Source: Physcia stellaris
Taxonomy: Eukaryota > Ascomycota > Lecanoromycetes > Caliciales > Physciaceae
Direction of reading: 5' to 3'
Assembly: GCA_018902385.1 (NCBI GenBank)
Contig: JABSSW010000045.1
Coordinates: 310,001-374,000 of the forward strand
DNA length: 64,000 nt
Part shown: positions 9,900 through 59,970 of the stretch, piece after piece
Position numbering within the stretch: position 1 is the first letter of the stretch
Layout: every line of letters begins with the position of its first letter
Notes under the pieces: model-generated
What the model was told of the DNA's origin: nothing
The model's input: only the letters and a program-made list of their open reading frames with translations
The model's database searches: none
Made by a program: the position numbers and the translations under genes

Positions 9900-12800
9900 A
9901 TGATGGCTCAACCCCCCCAATTGCAATACCAAGCTGTCATCACTTCGATCGATTTATTGAAGCAAAGGGGCAGCTACCATGCTCTCAAGCCAGAGCGAAA
10001 AAGGCAATCGGCTCAAATTGAAGTCAATCTGTCCAGCCGTATCCGTGGTTCTGCCACTATACGTGATACAGAAAACCTTTCTGTGGGGGCCGCTTCTAAA
10101 CGCCCCTGTCTTGATCTCGAAGATGTTATCGAAGCTAGCAAAATTCATAGAGATACCAAGTGAGTGTGTTCCGGTCATTGCTCTGCTCCGTGGAGAAACC
10201 TAGATCGAGGAACATTGTGGGCTTTGCAGGGCATGAACTCTTACCCGTGGCTCAAAGCTTACCCGAGGATGGAGATACCGATTCTCACATCGTCGTTAGT
10301 GGTACAACCCAACACGCGGTTTCTGAGTATTCTCAGCGTCAGGCTGCAAGGTCAACACCAGGTGCTTCCGTGAACCCACTCCTCCGCCTGTCGAACCCCT
10401 CTTACGGCCTGCCAGAATCGCTCGTGAGAAATTTTGCTAGCTTGGGTATTGACAACATCTACCCATGGCAGTCGTCTTGTCTACTTGGTCGTGGGATATT
10501 GACCGGGGAAAAGAATCTGGTTTACAGCGCTCCAACCGGAGGAGGGAAGAGCCTAGTCGCCGACGTCCTTATGCTGAAAAGGGTCATTGAAGACCCTAAG
10601 AAAAAAGCGATCCTGGTTTTGCCTTATGTAGCCTTGGTCCAGGAGAAGTTACAGTGGCTAAGGAAGGTGGTAGACGGAGTTTCTCGCAATTATGTTGAAG
10701 AGTCCATAGATTCCTCAATATCTCGGGAGCGTCAAGCGAGGAGAAGCCAACCCTGTAGCGCTATACGAGTTGCGGGCTTTTTTGGAGGCACTAAAGCCTT
10801 TCGCGGCGCAAAGTGGTCTGATATTGATATTGCGATTTGCACGTTCGAGAAGGTAAAGTTCCTTTCACCAGATCACTCCAGAAGCGTCTAGCTGCTAAAA
10901 TGCAGGAAGGCGAATTGGCTTGTAAACGATGCTATCGAAAAATCTACGGTTGATGATATAGGTGTCGTTGTGATGGACGAATTGCATATGATTGATGATT
11001 ACCACCGGGGATATCTGATGGAGCTGATGGCGACAAAGCTACTTACACTGGAGAGCGGCGTCCAGCTTATTGGCATGAGTGCGACCCTATCGGTGAGTTA
11101 GCGTCACACATATATGAGTGCAGCCATTAATATTCGCGAACCAGAATACGGAACAACTGGCCCGATGGCTCAATGCAAAGCACTACGTGTCGAAATACAA
11201 GCCAATTCCTATTGAGGAGTTCTGGGCATTCGATAATACTATCTATCCAGCGTCGACATCTCGCGACTTTGTCGAGATGGCAAACGAAAGTAACCCAAAT
11301 AGTGACAAAAGTGCCAGCAATCCTTCAGCCGAAAAACTCAGAAAGCAATTCAAGTCCCAAATAGCGGCCACTGGATGGATTCAGAAACCTGATTCCCAAG
11401 AATTACAGACTCCTGTGACAAACATCGTGGTCAGTCTAGCCATCGAGACAGCAAGAGCGGGTTACGGGGCGTTGATCTTTTGCAGCCACAGGAAAGGCTG
11501 CGAATCTCTAGCGACATTGATAAGCAGAGCAATGCCTAGTAGCGATGAAATCGCAGACCACATTCTGGACAACAGAAAAGATGTTCTGGCTGAGCTCCGA
11601 AGCTTGCCAATCGGTATTGAAGAGACTCTGGGTAAGACGGTCATGAGGGGTGTGGCTTTTCATCGTATGTCAAGACCAGAGCTTCGACTGGATTCACAAT
11701 TAATATATCTCTACCTCCAGATGCAGGTATTACAGTCGAAGAGAGAGAGATTGTAGCCAAAGCATACAATATAGGCACTTTGAAGGTGCTCGTTGCTACA
11801 TGCAGCCTAGCAGCAGGCATCAATTTACCCGCGAGACGAGTCATCATTCAAGGAGCGAAAATGGGCAGACATACCATCGGCCCAGCGATGCTGTCAGTTT
11901 GACTTAAAAAGTCGATGCACAACTGCGCTGACAACAATTTAGGAGGCAAATGCGCGGAAGAGCCGGGCGTAAAGGCAAAGACGAGATTGGGGAAACGTAC
12001 CTTTGTTGCCATGAGACTGATATTGCAGAAGCTGCGAATCTCATTCAGACCGAACTACCAGAGGTTGCTAGCTGTCTGAATCCCGAGAAAAGAGGCATAA
12101 AAAGGCATGGTTGTTCGGTGCGAAAGAAAGTTAGTAATGCTGAGACATAACAGGGCATTACTGGAGGTCATCACTGTGCGGTTAGCCACCCATCCAATTG
12201 CGATCCAGGAGTATATTCGACGCACATTGTTATTCCATACGATTGAGCCGCAAACTTTGGATGGGATGGTCGAAAAAGCCATCGAACAGCTTACAACGGA
12301 TGGGTTCGTCGAACTCGACAGCAGCGGATCTTATCAGGCAACTCAGCTTAGTAAAGCCACCGTTTCATCCTATTTGTCCCCTGAAGATGGCCTTCTCATT
12401 CACGATGAGCTACGCCGGGCCCTGCAAGCTTTCGTAATGGACGGAGAGATGCACGTCTTCTACCTTTTCACACCAATCCAAATGAACGAGATGACGCAGA
12501 TCGACTGGCCAATATTCCGTCGTGAAATGGAAAACCTGGACGACAGTGGTATGCGAGTTCTCCGACTTATTGGTATAAATCCTGGTTTGGTCAATAACAT
12601 GTAATCTCGGACCGGAGCTTCCCCCTTTTGCACGCTGACAAATTTCAGGGCCAATAGCGGAAAAGTTTTATCGGAGGGCAATGATCAGGAGATCAAGACC
12701 GCACGCATCTACCGACGCTGTTATCTTGCTTTCCAGCTCCGAGACCTCTGCAACGAAGCACCAATACACATGGTCGCGCAGAGATATGGGGCTACGACAG

Positions 12801-13336
12801 GATCGGTCCAAACATTGTCTCAGTGGTGTGAAGGCTTCGCCGCCGGTATTATCCAGTTCTGTGATCGCATGGGCTGGGGGATGCTCAAGAGTGTTCTCGA
12901 GCACATGAGCGACCGTCTCAAAGCGGGCGCCAGAGCGGATTTGCTTGAGCTGGCACGGATTCCTTTTGTCAAGAGCCGAACAGCACGAGTACTCTGGGAC
13001 AGTGGGTTGCGAAGTCTGATGGCGGTCGCCGAGGCAGACCCGAAGGATCTGGTCCCTATTTTACTTCTGGTGGGATCCCCGGACTTGGGAACAAGAGCGC
13101 TCAAGCTGACACCTGAATAGGCACAGCCCGGCAAAGCGCGAATCTATGGACAGGATGAAGGCAAATACCAGCAGAAAATGATGCTGAAAGCGGAGATCAT
13201 CGTCAGTGCTGCCAATCGTTTATGGGGTATGTCAATTAGACAGCGGCATGGTTTCACAATGGCACGGCTTTGTAGAAGACATGGCTAATGATGCATAGGT
13301 ATCCAACAGCAAGTGGATATTGAAGTGGACATCTGA
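9900..13336 (+). CDS. HELQ/POLQ-type superfamily 2 DNA helicase, no polymerase domain
   Basis: Predicted ATP-dependent 3'-5' DNA helicase of the Ski2-like group that includes HELQ and the helicase half of DNA polymerase theta, acting in crosslink and replication-fork repair. Ten exons: 9900-10159, 10204-10852, 10910-11092, 11145-11664, 11721-11892, 11943-12104, 12154-12600, 12649-13069, 13121-13226 and 13299-13336; 985 residues. Motif I is APTGGGKS, motif II DELHMI, motif III SATL. Motifs V and VI are visible as ATCSLAAGINLPARRVI and QMRGRAGRKG. A winged-helix and ratchet region follows with the KRALLEVI junction. The ATG at 9900 (MMAQPPQLQYQ) is preferred; an in-frame ATG lies at 9852. Intron 12105-12153 needs a GC donor to keep the conserved frame. 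After the helicase the gene stops, so the polymerase half of POLQ is absent, as in HELQ. Orthology to HELQ versus POLQ is not settled here. Confidence 0.9.
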
Positions 13337-13543
13337 AAGGAGTTTACTTTGACTATTTTCTGCCTGGTGATGCAATGAATTTCCAATTGAATGGAAGCCT
13401 TACAAAGCAAATCAGGCAGACAATTGGGACAGATGCTTGGCGGGTGGCGCAGCAATTGATTCCCAATGCTTGCATCAGCATGACATATCCAAAGAATCAC
13501 CTTGCCCTAAGGGTAAGGTACGAGCAAGGTCCCAGATAGTACT

Positions 13544-13563
13544 GTAAGGTACATGTACCTTAC
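13544..13563. repeat. Perfect 20-bp palindrome
   Basis: GTAAGGTACATGTACCTTAC reads the same on both strands. Related AAGGTAC copies sit nearby at about 13514, 13597 and 13628. It lies about 230 bp upstream of the quinone reductase start. It could be a dimeric regulator site or part of a small cruciform-forming repeat. Confidence 0.85.
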
Positions 13564-13626
13564 CTTATCCGTGGGAGAAATGGTATGCGGGGTACAAGGT
13601 ACCCGTTCACCGACATTACTAATACG

Positions 13627-13643
13627 TAAGGTACAGTACCTTA
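13627..13643. repeat. 17-bp inverted repeat with 1-nt centre
   Basis: TAAGGTACAGTACCTTA is an inverted repeat of eight bases around a single A. It uses the same half-site as the palindrome 64 bp upstream and lies 33 bp upstream of the TATA box. Confidence 0.8.
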
Positions 13644-13791: not shown

Positions 13792-14688
13792 ATGGCGCCC
13801 AAGATCGCAATTGTCTTTGTCAGTGCAGCGTTCCTTTTTCGAAAGCCTGGAACCTGTCTGTGCATGCTAACCAATTTTGCAGTATTCCATGTATGGACAT
13901 ATCCAAAAGCTTGCCGAGGCCGAAAAGGCTGGCATCGAAGCTGCTGGGGGTAAAGCGGATCTCTATCAGTAAGCTTGGCCATGAACTAACAAAAGAAGTC
14001 TCTACTGTTGTTGCAAATTCATTTGCAAGTCAGTTCTCAGACGCTTGATCTTGCTGATCTAAGGATAGAGTCAAGGAGACCCTGCCTGAAGAAGTCCTCA
14101 AGAAGATGTACGCACCAGGCCAAACTGACGCTATCCCTTTCATCACTCCGGAAATAATGGAAGGCTATGACGCCTTCCTCTTTGGTATTCCAACTCGCTA
14201 TGGAAATTTCCCAGCTCAGTGGAAGTCCTTCTTTGATGCTACTGGCAAACAATGGCAAACAGGCGCTTATGTAAGTCGCTCTCACTCCACTGGGTGCACA
14301 CGCACACTAACAGGCTCTAGTGGGGCAAGTATGTCGGACTCTTCGTTTCGACCGCCTCTCAGGGCGGCGGTCAGGAGAGCACAGCACTTGCCACTATGAG
14401 CACACTTGCACACCACGGCATGATCTACGTACCATTGGGCTACAAGACCACTTTCAACATACTTGCCGATCTTTCCGAAGTCCGGGGCGGCAGTGCTTGG
14501 GGCGCGGGCACTTTCGCTGTAAGTCTTTTACTCACCGTAGCTTTGCGTGCAAGGAGAGTTGAAAACTAACATATCATCACGTTTAGGGTGCTGATGGATC
14601 GCGTCAGCCCACCGAGAAAGAGCTTGAGCTCGCAAAGGCCCAGGGAACCGCCTTCTATCAGGCCGTTTCCAAGGTCAATTTCGCTTGA
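13792..14688 (+). CDS. NAD(P)H:quinone oxidoreductase, WrbA/Pst2/Alt a 7 type flavoprotein
   Basis: FMN-binding two-electron quinone reductase of the flavodoxin-like WrbA family, which protects against redox-cycling quinones. Exons are 13792-13818 (27 nt), 13883-13968, 14069-14270, 14321-14518 and 14587-14688; 204 residues, the usual family length. The start [20 protein letters not shown] gives the FMN phosphate loop. [15 protein letters not shown] and [16 protein letters not shown] are the other two FMN-contact loops. The core ends in [17 protein letters not shown], where related allergen Alt a 7 also ends. The first intron uses a GTCAGT donor. The stop TGA is followed by CTAG and then by a 60-codon in-frame extension (separate entry), so a longer isoform is possible. 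The promoter has a TATA box and GGTAC palindromes. The enzyme call is firm; the exact paralogue (Pst2, Rfs1 or Ycp4 like) is not. Confidence 0.95.
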
Positions 14689-14871
14689 CTAGCCGGCGAG
14701 ACCGCCTCTGAGCCAAAGTCCCAGGAGCAAGCGTCGAAAGGTACAAAAGAGACGGAGTCAAGCGCACCTGCAGGAACAACATCGGCAAAAGCTGCTGGAC
14801 CAGAGGATTCAACGGATGAGCAGGATAAGAGTGGACCTTGCGGATTACCTGCAAAGTGCGAGATCCTGTAG
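14686..14871 (+). other. Candidate stop-codon read-through tail with CaaX box
   Basis: Directly after the quinone reductase stop (TGA at 14686-14688) the context is CTAG, giving TGACTAG, the known high read-through motif. The same frame stays open for 60 codons to TAG at 14869-14871. The tail is Ala/Ser/Glu/Lys-rich and lacks hydrophobic segments. It ends PCGLPAKCEIL, with a terminal Cys-Glu-Ile-Leu CaaX box (Leu favours geranylgeranylation) and a second Cys seven residues upstream that could be palmitoylated. An alternative route to the same tail is an optional intron 14603-14692 (GTCAGC donor, TAG acceptor, 90 nt, in frame), but that would remove the conserved last helix. A recent nonsense mutation is the null explanation. 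Read-through itself is inference. Confidence 0.6.
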
Positions 14872-15414
14872 ACGGGCCTAGAGGCTTGGCTTCCATAGCT
14901 AAATAGAGCGGGCATAGCCTTTATGTGAGCAAACATGGCTAAAGGCGTGAATATGCCCATCATCGGGTATCAGATACGAGTAGTCAGCTACTCGTTTCTT
15001 ACATCCTGCAACTGTTCCTGAGTGACTCGCCCACATTTGTATCAATCATTTCTATACCCCATGGTCTGGTAGTAGATGGTGCAATAGATCTGCGATTACG
15101 CGATTTGGGATGCTGTCATCTTCATGTTGTCTTCATATGCTTTGTGCCAGAAACGCGGACGCGTTTTGCATAATGAATGTATTAGTGACGATGCATCAGA
15201 GGCAGGATAGCACCACACCAGACCATGGGATAGCCGCGCATGACCGTCGAGGTGGTCGGCTCAAGAGCAATGTCACCTTCAAGCAGAGCTTCTGAAATAT
15301 TGTCTAGAATCCAGGCCAATCCGACGTAGAACCCCCAAACACCACGCTAATAAAGTATTGAACCGGGATGTGACCTGCCTCAGGGGAAACCCAAATTACA
15401 GCAACAACCGTCTC
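14872..15414. other. Convergent 3' region, quinone reductase and yth1
   Basis: 543 bp between two convergent gene ends. AATAAA at 15349-15354 on the plus strand could be a poly(A) element but lies far from the stop. No coding potential recognised. Confidence 0.5.
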
Positions 15415-21629: not shown

Positions 21630-22566
21630 TTGATACCCTGACCACAATTCATCAAGTTCAAGCAAAATCGCATCAATGGTAAAAGAGACGTGTGTCAAGA
21701 CCTTCACCCCTGATACCACGCACTCGAACATTCTAGCAAAATCTCCTCGAAAATCCTAAGTCCCTTAGCGCGCTCCCCTTTCCCCTTCCACTTACCCGGC
21801 ACACCTCCCCAACTACATTAAGCACCCTCCCTCCCACTTCTCTTCTCTTTTTTCCCTCAGCTCTCTTTGCCTTTTGGCTTAGATCAAGTGTAGTGTAAGA
21901 CGCCCATCCCAGACTTACCCTTTCAAGTAAAAGCAATTGCTGACTCCGAAATAGATCTGTTCTTTTCAGTTTAATCTCTGAAATGTCACTACGGTGACAA
22001 TCAATGATTAAATTTATTTTTGGTCCCGGCCCTGCAGACCTCTGGGCTTGCTCATGTTTGCGGGCACTGTGTCACTTGCCTTACACTGCCGCGAGTTGAC
22101 GCGAACACTTTTTCATCATCTTCTTCCAGCTTGTTTCTGGGGATTTGAAGAAGAAAACTTGTTCATTTCGATCGGCCATTATATTGTGTCGCTGCTGCTC
22201 GGCGGGCTGGATTGATTGGATTTCTTCAGTCTAAGCGTTCGGTCGATGTGTGTACGTACTCCTTCAAACATTGGCAGATGTTCCCTTGGTGTTGCCTACA
22301 GGCAAATGGGTTGAAGCGACTTCTTGAAGAGTACTGCTTTCTTGTCTACTTTACTCTACAAACATGGACCTACTGTTCTGTCCGGGCACTTATGAATAAT
22401 GAGCCCCAAAGTGTGAATATCTTGAAATCAATCCTGTTCTGCACTGCGTCATCGGGAAGCCGCTGCTTAAACTTCGATTGATCGGAGAATCCATCCAACT
22501 CCACCCGCTACAATATTGCAATACATTATCCTGATCTTACAGTCACGAGGTGTGCCTACCACGCAA
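21630..22566. other. Convergent intergenic region with pyrimidine tract
   Basis: 937 bp between two convergent gene ends. A C/T-rich stretch runs from about 21745 to 21865. A plus-strand ORF at 22212-22481 does not resemble a protein. Nothing else stands out. Confidence 0.5.
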
Positions 22567-31895: not shown

Positions 31896-32626
31896 TCCGT
31901 CTCGAGTAAAAGTGTGAGATCAGGATGGGTTGCATGCCGCGAAAGCCGATGAACGACGAGGTAGCACGGACAGACACCGAAGTCTGCCTCACAATTTTGA
32001 ATTACTATTAGATGGTGTATTTTGTATATATGCCAGCCAAAGAGGACCAGTGAAGTGAAAGCTTCGAGTAAACAACGGTCTACGACAGCGATCTAGAAAA
32101 AGACTAAGGTGCAAAGCAAGATGAAAAGGTACAAGTTGCGAGAAAACAATAAATTATCGTCAACGAAGATCATCACCGTTCCAAGCTTCATCCAGCCTCT
32201 CCAAGCGAGCCACGGCACAGACCAGGAGCTAGCAGGGATCCTGCAGATAGACTTTCCGGCTGTGCTAGACCCTTTACAGTCGAGGACGCCAAGCCAGGCG
32301 TCTCTCACAAAGTCTGGTGTGTGTCCTTTGATGCACAGCCAGTCGAGGATAGCGTAAATTTGGCCTCATGGCTCTTGAATTGAATACAAAATCACGGAGA
32401 CTGTCCCACAGCTCATCTCATTCATTGACGCTCTTTTACAGGTCCCCCTGAGAAGATCCTTCTGATCTGACCGTCATCACTTGACCCACAAACAACCACC
32501 TCTCTCAAACAAAGGTCTTCTATTCAAGACATTTACCATCCCAAATTGTTTTTCCCTCAACGACGCAAAGCGATACCATCTAAACCCCTGATGGCGGCAT
32601 CATTGTAAACACCTATACATATCAAG
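31896..32626. promoter_or_regulatory. Divergent promoter region, PhoD-like gene and kexB
   Basis: 731 bp between divergent starts. No recognisable genes or repeats; the kexB side has a C/T-rich leader (32490-32560). Confidence 0.5.
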
Positions 32627-35231
32627 ATGCGAGTCGCACGTTATTTCGGCCTGCTGGCTTTGATTGGCACATCGTCTGCCGCCAACCTACACCCTCGAAA
32701 CCACGAAACCCATGAATATTACGCAGTTCACCTCCGTCCTGATGCCTCGCCGGCTCAAGTTGCATCCGCCCTTGGACTTGATCTGGTAGGAAAGCTTGGC
32801 GAGCTACCGGATCACTATACCTTTTCTTCCCCCCGACATAGGCAACATGGGGCGGACGATGTTCTTGAGGATCTGCGACGCCGTCGTATAAAACGGGTAG
32901 CCCCGACAGGTCTCAGCGCTCTCGACGGTGTCCTCTGGCATCAGAAACAGAAGCCCAAACCGCGAATGGAAAAGAGACATGTGCTCCCACCTTCCCCTGC
33001 GAGGCAGAACATTGGGTCTGGGGGTGTCCCAACAGTCCTTCCAGTGGTAGCTCAGAGCTCTGCGTTACCCGCTGCGCAACAAGCAGCTATCGCTATGAGG
33101 GATGAGGTCGCGCGAAAGCTAGAGATCCAAGACCCAATCTTCGGCGATCAATGGCATCTCTACAATACCGTCCAAATTGGTCATGATATCAATGTGACGG
33201 GTGTCTGGACGCAAGGCATCACTGGTCACAATGCTACTGTGGTTATGGTCGATGACGGTATCGATATGTACAGTGACGACCTGAAGGACAATTATTTCGC
33301 CGAGGGATCCTACGACTTTAACGATAATACTGCCGAACCGAGACCAAGGCTTTCCGATGACAAGCATGGCACAAGATGCGCTGGCGAAATCGCTGCTGTC
33401 AGGAATGGCGTTTGTGGAGTTGGTGCTGCCTATGACTCAAAAATTGGCGGCCTTCGCATCTTGTCTAAAGTGATAACAGATGAAGATGAAGCAGTAGCAA
33501 TGAACTATGCCTTTCAGAAGAATCAGATCTACTCTTGCTCCTGGGGCCCTCCGGACGATGGGCGTTCAATGGATGCGCCAGGAATCCTGATCAAAAAGGC
33601 CATGTTGAACGCCGTTCAAAAAGGTCGACAAGGCAAGGGTAACATCTACGTTTTTGCTGCTGGAAATGGTGCCTCAAGTGGAGACAACTGCAATTTTGAT
33701 GGTTACACCAACAGCATCTACAGCATCACCGTGGGGGCTATCGACAGGAAAGGCTTACACCCATACTATTCCGAAAAGTGCTCGGCGCAGTTGGTCGTGA
33801 CTTATAGCAGTGGCAGTGGCGATGCGATTCACACCACAGACGTTGGTACGAACGAATGTTACTCAAATCATGGTGGTACTTCGGCTGCGGCTCCTCTAGG
33901 CGCCGGTGTTTTCGCTCTGGCTTTGTCAATACGGCCTGACCTCACATGGCGCGACTTGCAACACATCCTTGTTCAAACCGCTGTCCCGGTGAATGAACAG
34001 GATGACTGGGATACTACATCCATTGGGCGAAAATATAGTCACACTTATGGTTATGGCAAGCTAGATGCTTACGCAATTGTTGAGAAAGCGAAGACCATTG
34101 AGCTTCTCAAGCCACAGGCGTGGTTTAATTCACCATGGCTGCACGTCAAACACCCAATCCCGCAAGGTGTTGAAGGTCTTCTGAGTACTTTTGAAGTCAC
34201 CAAAGAGGCTCTAGAGAAAGCGAATCTAGAGCGGGTGGAGCATGTTACAGTGACTATGAACGTAAACCACACACGGCGAGGTGACCTCAGCGTTGAACTC
34301 AGAAGCCCAACCAAAATGGTTAGCCACCTGAGTGTGACAAGGAGGCTTGACGATGCGGCCTTTGGGTACGTTGACTGGACTTTTATGTCGGTAGCGCATT
34401 GGTAAGTACAGGCACGTCAACTTGTCAAAGAATCATTTCACTGATGGGCTTCCCAGGGGCGAAACCGGTATCGGCAAATGGAGTGTTGTGGTCAAAGACA
34501 CGATGGTCAACGAACACAACGGGACCTTCACAGACTGGAAACTGACGCTCTGGGGTGAGAGTATTGATGGATCTAAGCAAGAACTGCTCCCAATGCCAAC
34601 CGACCATGATGACGATGACCACGACGTGATATCAGCTTCTGCTTCCACAGCAATAGTTTCAAACACTGCAGCTGCAACGCCGTCGACCAACCCGACAGAC
34701 CACATTGACCGTCCCGTGAACGCCAAACCTACCGCTCCCGCACCCATCACTGAACCCAGCACTACTCCCGATACCGCTGTGACATCCAAACCAACATCCA
34801 CACCAACTACATCTGCAAGTCCATCTGCGAGCACGACCGCAGCAGCAGACAGCTTCTTACCACATTATTTCCCCACCTTCGGCGTGTCTAAAAAGACACA
34901 AATATGGATATATGGTTCATTCGCTATAATTGTCGTTTTCTGCATCGGCCTCGGTACCTACTTCTTCGTCCAGCGAAGGAGGAGAGCTAACATTAATCGC
35001 GACGACTACGAGTTTGAGATGGTCAATGATGATGACGCGAATACTGGTCTCAGAGGTCGTTATAAGGGTAGACGAAGCAAGCGTGGAGGCGAGCTCTACG
35101 ATGCTTTTGCCGGAGAGAGCGACGACGAGCTGCTGTCCGATGAAGAAGAAGGATATCAGGACGAAAAACCAGACGACGCGGACAAAGGAAGCCGACGCTC
35201 CTCACGAGAAGAGCTCAACGAAAAGCAATGA
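32627..35231 (+). CDS. kexB: Kexin-type proprotein convertase KexB
   Basis: Calcium-dependent subtilisin-like protease of the trans-Golgi that cuts secreted precursors after Lys-Arg or Arg-Arg. Exons 32627-34401 and 34457-35231; 849 residues. A signal peptide (MRVARYFGLLALIGTSSAAN) is followed by the propeptide, with probable autocleavage after RRRRIKR or RMEKR. Catalytic Asp is in VVMVDDGIDMYSDDL, His in DDKHGTRCAGEI, the oxyanion Asn in VFAAGNGAS and Ser in NHGGTSAAAPLGAG. A P domain (about 490-630) spans the intron. A Ser/Thr/Pro-rich stalk (about 645-735) precedes one membrane helix (IWIYGSFAIIVVFCIGLGTY). The cytoplasmic tail contains YEFEMV, matching the Tyr-based trans-Golgi retrieval signal of yeast Kex2, plus acidic clusters. 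All catalytic residues are present. Confidence 0.96.
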
Positions 35232-38749: not shown

Positions 38750-40026
38750 TCATCGTCGTGACGGCTGTCGGACGAGATTGATTGCATCTTCCTCGTCAGC
38801 ATCCGCAGACCTAAAAACATCATCTTCATCATCAGTGAACTCATCGCGATAAAATCCGTTGCGTTCTTCGTGATCGGGAAAGTCAATCTCATCGTCTCTT
38901 AGCAAATTAGCGGCTGCTTGCTCATCAGACTCATCCGAGAATCCAGGCCTATGAGCTGTGTATGTTCCATGGTTGTTTCTCTCCTCAGCTTCTAATTGCT
39001 GCGAGCGAGCAATGGTCCTGTGGGTTTTCAGTAATTAGTACCTCAAATCGCCTGCTGAGATCCGTACCTTCTGTATATGAGCCAACCAGTTACTGCCCCT
39101 ATAATCATGCCTACTATGATACTGATCCAGTTGATTGCTTTGGTTCCAGCATCCATTTTCTCGCCGCTCTTCGCAATCACTGCCAACCTTGACCCAATGA
39201 AAACGTGGATGAGCAGCTTGGGAGTGATAATTGCTGTAGCCAATGCATACATGGCTGGTTGTACCGTTGGAAAAGTCGAAATCGCCCCGTTGGAAATGGA
39301 GTAAGGGAGCGGACACAACCGAATCATACATAGCAGTTTGAGCCCATCATGCTTCAACACCAAGGAGAGTGCTTCAAATCTAGTGTCGTTCGCCACTAGT
39401 CGCTGGACAAACTTTGAGAGAAGTGACCTAGACGCAATGAAAGAGCATGTAGACCCAGCAATAGTAGCGGTTGCGGCAATGAACCATCTGGATCCGAGTC
39501 TGTCAGTAAAGATCACCCATGGCGATGTGCTCTGTGCGCCTTGTATGCGGTTCTGGGCAGCTTACCCCTCAGGAACCCCGTATACAAAGCCCGCGATAGT
39601 AATGCAAGAGGAATAGCCAATGGCTGGGGGAAATGCGGTGATGAAGATTATGCCCCATAGGATAAGCCAACCTCCCTTCAAATCCTTCCATTTAACGGCA
39701 ATAGGTTCTAACCGGGCGAAGATTCGCTCGTTAAAGACTAGGAAGAGGATACCAACAACTAAAGTGACAATGCCAGCAAAGGCGACCAGCGCTCGCTGTA
39801 GTGGTGTCAACTTCTCGATGGTGCGATAAACCTTCCTGTTCAGATTCTCGGCATTTTCGAGCAGGCTGTCTGCTATGTTTTGACCTTGCCTTCCACGTGG
39901 CTGATCATGTTGGCGAGAAGGTGGGTTAGACTGACGGGGTTTGGAGTGTTGTGGAACGGGTGGTGTATTTGGTGGGGAGATAGGTAAGGCTAAAGCACGA
40001 GCGGTAGAATTGTAATCTGCAGGCAT
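38750..40026 (-). CDS. tvp38: Tvp38, Golgi membrane protein with VTT/DedA-like domain
   Basis: Multispanning late-Golgi membrane protein of the SNARE-associated (VTT/DedA-like) family, implicated in lipid scrambling and vesicle traffic. Exons 40026-39566, 39499-39068 and 39017-38750; 386 residues. The N-terminal 70 residues are Pro/Arg-rich and cytosolic. Hydrophobic segments include [20 protein letters not shown] and [20 protein letters not shown]. The conserved loop [20 protein letters not shown] spans the first splice junction. [10 protein letters not shown] and [20 protein letters not shown] are the core VTT motifs, and [20 protein letters not shown] is the last helix. The C-terminal tail is acidic ([22 protein letters not shown]). 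Introns are 66 and 50 nt. Confidence 0.92.
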
Positions 40027-59260: not shown

Positions 59261-59970
59261 TGTGGCGGTAGTGAGTGTTCAGAGTGGAAGTGGCTAAAGA
59301 GCATCAGCTGGTGACAGGGCATTTGAGTCGCCCCAGAGTAAGCATTCAATTGACAACGTGATTAGTGAGGATCTTGAATCTGCCTTGTGGGAAGGCCTTC
59401 GGACGTCTAAAGAAGCTGATCGCTTTACCATAGGTACACCAAATGGAGCTTGGCTTGTCAAGCTGTCTGATACCTATAATTAGCTCAAGGCGAGAAATCC
59501 TTGCTTGTCTCGGGACGTAGTTCCGTTAGCGTCAAGATAGTTCTATGAGGGTATTGCTTTGCAGTACGGAAAGGTACCGGAGTTTCCCTCATTTACAAGG
59601 GGGTCCAGTGGGCCAGGATCACCCAGGAGTACTCAAGAAGCATTCAGGTGGTGCAGGCCCGCACGAGAGTCACCCGCGTCGTGCGAGAATACAACAGCGC
59701 TCACCCTAGGCGGTGGAGGGGGTGATTTTGGGAAGCCCTTGGGTGCGATCAATCTGGAAATCTAATTATCATTAATTATTATTGGTTCTGCTCAACTACT
59801 TGGGTATCTGACCAGACCGCAACGCAAATATTCTACTAGAAGTATTTCAAAGAATAATCATACTAATATGTACGAGGATGCAGAAGTACAAAAAGGCGGA
59901 GAACTTCTTTCGCAAAACTTGATCCCCTCGGACGGGTTGATACCGTTCGATTCCCCCATGAGAAGCCGGA
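59261..59970. other. Intergenic, env7 promoter and CAP-Gly gene 3' side
   Basis: 710 bp between two minus-strand genes. Includes an A/T-rich stretch (59760-59790). No genes or repeats recognised. Confidence 0.5.

Follow-up and report, generated by a model that had tools for sequence, protein, structure and literature searches.

A quinone reductase gene with an open frame beyond its stop codon

The window that we analysed, a stretch of 64,000 nucleotides from the Physcia stellaris genome, holds at 13792-14688 of its forward strand a gene whose spliced product, assembled from five exons separated by four short introns, is 204 amino acids long. The parts of this gene model, its first stop codon and the open frame that follows are:

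13792-13818, forward strand: exon 1 of the spliced gene model, with the start codon ATG
13819-13882, forward strand: intron 1 (GTCAGT...CAG)
13883-13968, forward strand: exon 2 of the spliced gene model
13969-14068, forward strand: intron 2 (donor GTAAGC)
14069-14270, forward strand: exon 3 of the spliced gene model
14271-14320, forward strand: intron 3 (donor GTAAGT, 50 nt)
14321-14518, forward strand: exon 4 of the spliced gene model
14519-14586, forward strand: intron 4 (donor GTAAGT)
14587-14688, forward strand: exon 5 of the spliced gene model, through the first stop
14686-14692, forward strand: first stop (TGA, 14686-14688) in a high-readthrough context (CTAG, 14689-14692)
14689-14868, forward strand: 60-codon extension frame, a hydrophilic linker with no aromatics and 90% of its residues from AGPSTEKDQN
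14839-14841, forward strand: accessory Cys codon, a possible palmitoylation site
14857-14871, forward strand: CaaX box CEIL (codons 14857-14868) and second stop TAG (14869-14871)

A CTRAY branch site was present in all four introns. The earlier note had drawn the locus as 14584-14871, which holds for 14587-14871; the first three bases (14584-14586) belong to an intron, since exon 5 starts at 14587.

The 204-residue core scored 199.5 bits against TIGR01755 (NCBIfam; cut-off 132.5) over residues 4-195, matched yeast Pst2 (PDB 5mp4) with an E value of 2.1e-71, and gave Pfam matches to FMN_red and Flavodoxin_1. By these matches the core is a WrbA/Pst2-type NAD(P)H:quinone oxidoreductase (type IV), with predicted activity with FMN. 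Upstream of the gene lies a POLQ/HELQ-type helicase region (PF21099), and downstream, on the minus strand, a CCCH zinc-finger gene that converges on it. The helicase gene (12101-13288) has one in-frame stop at 12602-12604 within its POLQ_helical domain and another at 13118-13120, past a partial DUF7898 match; judged by eye, both look like short introns, not broken frames.

Position and context of the first stop

Relatives of the reductase were sought by protein scans of two contig collections. From the genome contig collection came 283 pattern matches and 228 relatives; 80 of the relatives were kept, with best-segment identities of 43-48%; none of these 80 of 228 was fungal, all being bacterial or archaeal by title. 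Among 14 control genomes, the six named as ringing were all prokaryotes. The viral contig collection gave 16 pattern matches and no relatives, and two further patterns, made from peptides shared with yeast Pst2, had zero and one match in the viral contigs. The lone match was set aside as chance, its best tblastn match to the reductase covering only 24 residues.

When the frame of each of the 80 kept prokaryotic relatives was followed beyond its alignment, the stop fell at query positions 203-231, at or before position 215 in 79 of them and at a median of 204. This agrees with the claim that the enzyme ends at the TGA of 14686-14688 at the usual length of its family. None of the 80 had TGACTA at its stop, and no Cys at position -4 was counted in those with at least four residues beyond the alignment.

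Directly after the TGA, at 14689-14692, stands CTAG, just as the earlier note had read it. TGACTAG occurs at four of the 2320 TGA triplets on both strands of the window. A further 34 stop-to-stop frames, whether genes or not, span 200 codons or more; two of them close with TGACT, and TGACTA closes none. Stiebler et al. reported for Ustilago maydis that CUA after UGA is enough for efficient readthrough and that G often comes next (PMC4207609), and a 2025 study names UGA CUA G as a high-readthrough motif (PMC12233894); the two sources agree with the earlier description of TGA CTA as such a context. The base at position -1 of this TGA is U, which a cited study ties to lower readthrough in mammalian cells (PMC12233894), and the stability of RNA structure 3' of the stop was not above that of shuffles in the three stretches folded (z of +0.6 to +1.3). 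The level of readthrough may thus be low.

Coding signal of the 60-codon tail

The frame stays open for 60 codons past the TGA and ends in CEIL before the second stop, TAG at 14869-14871, as had been seen before. Openness by itself is weak evidence and not remarkable, since the frame runs on for 60 or more codons after 229 of the 2320 TGA triplets on both strands of the window (~10%); three other frames likewise stay open over the tail in full or almost in full, one forward (14693-14881) and two reverse (14658-14969 and 14675-14920).

We then scored the tail with a codon model trained on 13 long ORFs of the window, and with a second training set of 12 Pfam-backed ORFs, so that its coding signature consists of codon statistics from a single genome. 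Frame 0 of the tail scored +10.1 bits, and the remaining five frames scored from -5 to -41. With the first training set this score was matched by none of 3000 open dinucleotide shuffles, none of 2000 open mononucleotide shuffles and none of 204 open wrong-frame chunks (from 1800), and it lay above 89% of 126 chunks cut from long ORFs; with the Pfam-backed set, one of 3000 shuffles attained it. The synonymous-only signal was modest: under the first training set 36 of 3000 shuffles matched it, and under the second, 17 of 3000. The T content was 13% in the tail versus 28% in the 180 nt beyond its stop, and the composition change point was placed best at 14886 and nearly equally well at 14838, not exactly at 14871. 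By these measures the tail looks translated. A gene running antisense across the tail was disfavoured, all three reverse frames having negative scores although two are open.

Of 277 open stretches (from 3262) that lie outside any ORF of 130 codons or more, eight attained the score of the tail. Two of these are exon 3 of the quinone reductase gene itself and one starts at 59298 on the forward strand. The other five are overlapping open 180-base stretches at 38753-39016 on the reverse strand, which are strongly coding-like, lie outside the long ORFs and are probably a missed exon.

A tail that is translated could also be reached by splicing, if an intron containing the TGA were removed from some or all transcripts and its retention produced the short form. 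One candidate for such an intron, or for another like it, is:

14674-14724, forward strand: weak in-frame candidate intron, 51 nt, GTCAAT...CAG, which would remove the TGA

This candidate is in frame, runs from GT to CAG, is of the usual size (the real intron 3 has 50 nt), contains a relaxed branch-like TTGAC, and would keep the core to K200 while joining ...AVSK to EQASKG...CEIL. Its GTC donor has a counterpart in intron 1 of the same gene, and fungi use splicing as well as readthrough for dual targeting (PMC4207609). However, the donor GTCAAT is off consensus at +3 and +5, and a strict CTRAY branch was found in none of 119 in-frame candidates with an exon 5 donor (35 had a relaxed one), in contrast with four of the four real introns. 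The second part of the candidate (14689-14724) resembles the rest of the tail, with 11% T and +2.5 bits over 12 codons, and its removal as an intron would leave the TGACTAG context to chance. Other introns that would remove the TGA were rejected: the 25 listed, out of 111 in-frame GT-AG pairs whose donor lies no earlier than exon 4, had no strict branch, and all 25 would lose about 27 or more of the last core residues. We therefore consider splicing an unlikely source of the tail.

The CaaX end and the Ycp4 precedent

The last residues of the tail are PCGLPAKCEIL. The accessory Cys stands six residues ahead of the CaaX Cys (tail positions 51 and 57), not seven as first counted. Ends of the form C-x-[ILV]-[LF] are rare: the window contains 460 open stretches with 60 codons or more, among which the tail of the quinone reductase gene is the only one with such an end and three fit a looser CaaX pattern. 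The tail also lies below the Uversky boundary (0.396 versus 0.443).

Compared by eye with the substrate rules of PMC1175975, the end of the tail has an aliphatic a2, a permitted X, a hydrophilic linker and a Lys at -1. According to that source, Leu at X favours geranylgeranyltransferase I, which fits the earlier description of a terminal Cys-a-a-Leu as a geranylgeranylation signal, and GGT1 prefers Ser or Lys ahead of the Cys, Lys being the residue found in the CEIL tail. Close yeast motifs are CAIL of Cdc42 and CTIL of Rsr1. Of 20 motifs with the ending -IL, the class to which CEIL would belong, 13 were enriched when yeast was screened for membrane recruitment, an assay that reads farnesylation.

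The earlier statement that such a tail is improbable by chance draws little from its openness; what is unusual is to find the TGACTAG context, the C-x-[ILV]-[LF] end and coding-like codon statistics together, although the site was chosen for having these features and the rates are not clean P values. A chance open frame in the 3' UTR, with the CaaX end a coincidence, could draw on the 10% of TGAs with equally long open frames, and on the low T content of the tail and the three other frames open across it. Codon statistics that neither shuffles (0 of 3000) nor wrong-frame chunks (0 of 204) equalled, the composition change, the rarity of the CaaX end (1 of 460) and the match to a tail of Ycp4 type in the same family all speak against coincidence, which we hold to be improbable, and more so than splicing.

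The Ycp4 proteins of Candida albicans and Saccharomyces cerevisiae belong to the same flavodoxin-like enzyme family and carry C-terminal extensions. That of C. albicans is ~90 amino acids long and ends in a CAAX box; S. cerevisiae Ycp4 has 49 additional C-terminal residues and is palmitoylated, with Cys 243 annotated for the modification and Erf2 listed as the acyltransferase. The earlier statement that some fungal members of the family, such as yeast Ycp4, are reported to be lipid-modified agrees with this palmitoylation. Ycp4/Pst proteins are listed as eisosomal, and those of C. albicans have been proposed to reduce ubiquinone and so to protect the plasma membrane. A lipid-anchored member of the same family can thus be expected to show a tail of such size with a CaaX end. 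In our view, this independent match to the Ycp4 type of tail is the strongest single argument that the Physcia tail is real.

Ycp4 has a gene to itself and its tail belongs to the normal product, whereas in Physcia the tail and its CaaX box lie outside the main open frame, behind the in-frame TGA at 14686-14688. This difference parallels the observation of Stiebler et al. that the peroxisomal targeting signal PTS1 stands in the main frame in some species and behind a stop in others (PMC4207609). Another reading is a recent stop gain, or an assembly or sequence error, by which the normal product would be the long CaaX form and the tail its intact remnant. A single base change would be enough, the tail scores as coding, and C. 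albicans Ycp4 carries such a tail in its normal product; but the TGA sits on the natural end of the family (median 204 in the 80 prokaryotic relatives), no further stop interrupts the frame of the tail, and the new stop would have had to fall by luck before CTA followed by G, which accounts for 27 of the 7846 codons in the training ORFs. Since the site had been picked for its context, the argument from luck is weakened, though not cancelled. We judge a stop gain or error to be about as unlikely as splicing.

A proposed minor membrane isoform

Taken together, the exact UGA CUA G context, a stop placed where members of the family normally end, the coding-like score of the tail and a CAAX-tailed relative in Candida are best explained by low-level readthrough of the UGA-CUAG, which would yield a minor, prenylated membrane isoform of the quinone reductase. 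From the sequence evidence we give this reading a probability of roughly two in three. The reading of the earlier note, which joined readthrough, prenylation and a move to the membrane, holds up as the best explanation of the measurable features and falls short of being proved.

One gene would accordingly encode two isoforms of the WrbA/Pst2-type reductase. Most ribosomes would end at the UGA and release a soluble enzyme of 204 amino acids, while a small share would pass it in its UGA-CUA-G context, a near-cognate tRNA inserting one residue at the UGA before 60 more are added to give 265 amino acids; Trp, Arg, Cys and Ser are known as residues inserted at UGA (PMC4207609). The added part would comprise a flexible hydrophilic linker, the upstream Cys and the C-terminal CEIL. 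The 265-residue form would be prenylated, most likely with geranylgeranyl and possibly with farnesyl, and perhaps palmitoylated too. Anchored in a membrane, it could reduce the quinones there, a role that has been suggested for eisosomal Ycp4/Pst proteins in Candida. Readthrough itself, and with it the prenylation, location and function of the long form, we infer from the features described above.

Pst2/WrbA enzymes are tetramers, so a single lipidated subunit could hold a mixed tetramer at the membrane. If readthrough were to reach the 4% reported for MDH1 (PMC5133446) and subunits assembled at random, about 15% of tetramers would contain at least one lipidated subunit (1 - 0.96^4). At somewhat less than even odds, and hence tentatively, we suggest that in this fungal lineage one gene covers both roles that yeast divides between soluble Pst2 and lipid-anchored Ycp4: conserved readthrough of UGA-CUAG would make a few percent of the subunits CaaX-ended, and these, assembled with short ones, would dock as mixed tetramers at the plasma membrane.

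Relation to known systems

It is already known in fungi that readthrough exposes targeting signals, in the form of PTS1. Isoforms with a cryptic PTS1 behind UGA-CUA have been described for Tpi1, Pgk1, Rpe1 and Art1 (Freitag 2012, Stiebler 2014), and these documented cases (PMC4207609) bear out the earlier claim that fungi employ readthrough to make targeted isoforms of metabolic enzymes. The Physcia reductase resembles them in its UGA CU(A) context, shared with Tpi1, Rpe1 and Art1, in being a metabolic enzyme, and in having the targeting signal only in the minor form. What sets it apart is a CaaX lipidation box in place of PTS1, an extension of 60 codons, a membrane as the predicted target, and its standing as a prediction from sequence.

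The earlier note knew of no described case of readthrough exposing a CaaX box, which is too strong. In Drosophila, a farnesyltransferase signal is predicted in the readthrough extension of Syx17 (Dunn 2013, Table 2), although Syx17 is an animal SNARE and its lipidation is a table prediction, and Schueren et al. report having screened human readthrough extensions for prenylation sites. In hepatitis delta virus, too, the large antigen continues beyond the short form into a C-terminal extension with a farnesylation signal, but there the system is viral, the means is RNA editing and the extension is 19 amino acids long. Among the matches listed in open-licence PubMed Central, we found neither a fungal readthrough event exposing a CaaX box nor a cellular protein whose CaaX box was experimentally shown to be exposed by readthrough.

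Recoding of the UGA would offer a further route to the long form, either by A-to-I editing to UGG or as selenocysteine. A-to-I editing of stop codons is known in some filamentous fungi, which counts in favour of editing, as does the hepatitis delta virus, which exposes its farnesyl box in this way. The usual context of such editing is UAG, whereas here the A to be edited would have G on its 5' side and C on its 3' side. As for selenocysteine, no SECIS element was among the Rfam gathering-level matches in the window, and the selenocysteine machinery is absent from fungi (PMC4207609). Recoding in either form appears very improbable, the least probable of the alternatives that we weighed.

If readthrough does expose the CEIL box, functional stop-codon readthrough would extend from peroxisomal targeting to lipid anchoring, and we know of no earlier cellular enzyme in which translation termination would set the prenylation. 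One gene would do the job that yeasts split between two paralogues, with the division between cytosol and membrane set by the ribosome in a simple, testable case, and stress that affects termination might adjust the prenylated share. There would also be grounds to look through the UGA-CUA extensions of fungi for CaaX ends, along the lines reported for human and fly extensions.

Other features of the window

A perfect palindrome, AAGGTACATGTACCTT, lies at 13546-13561, ~230 bases before the start codon of the quinone reductase, and repeats related to it occur inside 13506-13643. At up to two mismatches, 0.08 such palindromes are expected in the window; a regulator site and a small repeat element are both possible readings. 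The window also contains a U2 spliceosomal RNA gene at 21936-22110 on the forward strand (90 bits) and, at 32609-34402, a kexin-like proprotein convertase gene with Peptidase_S8, a P domain and a pro-domain.
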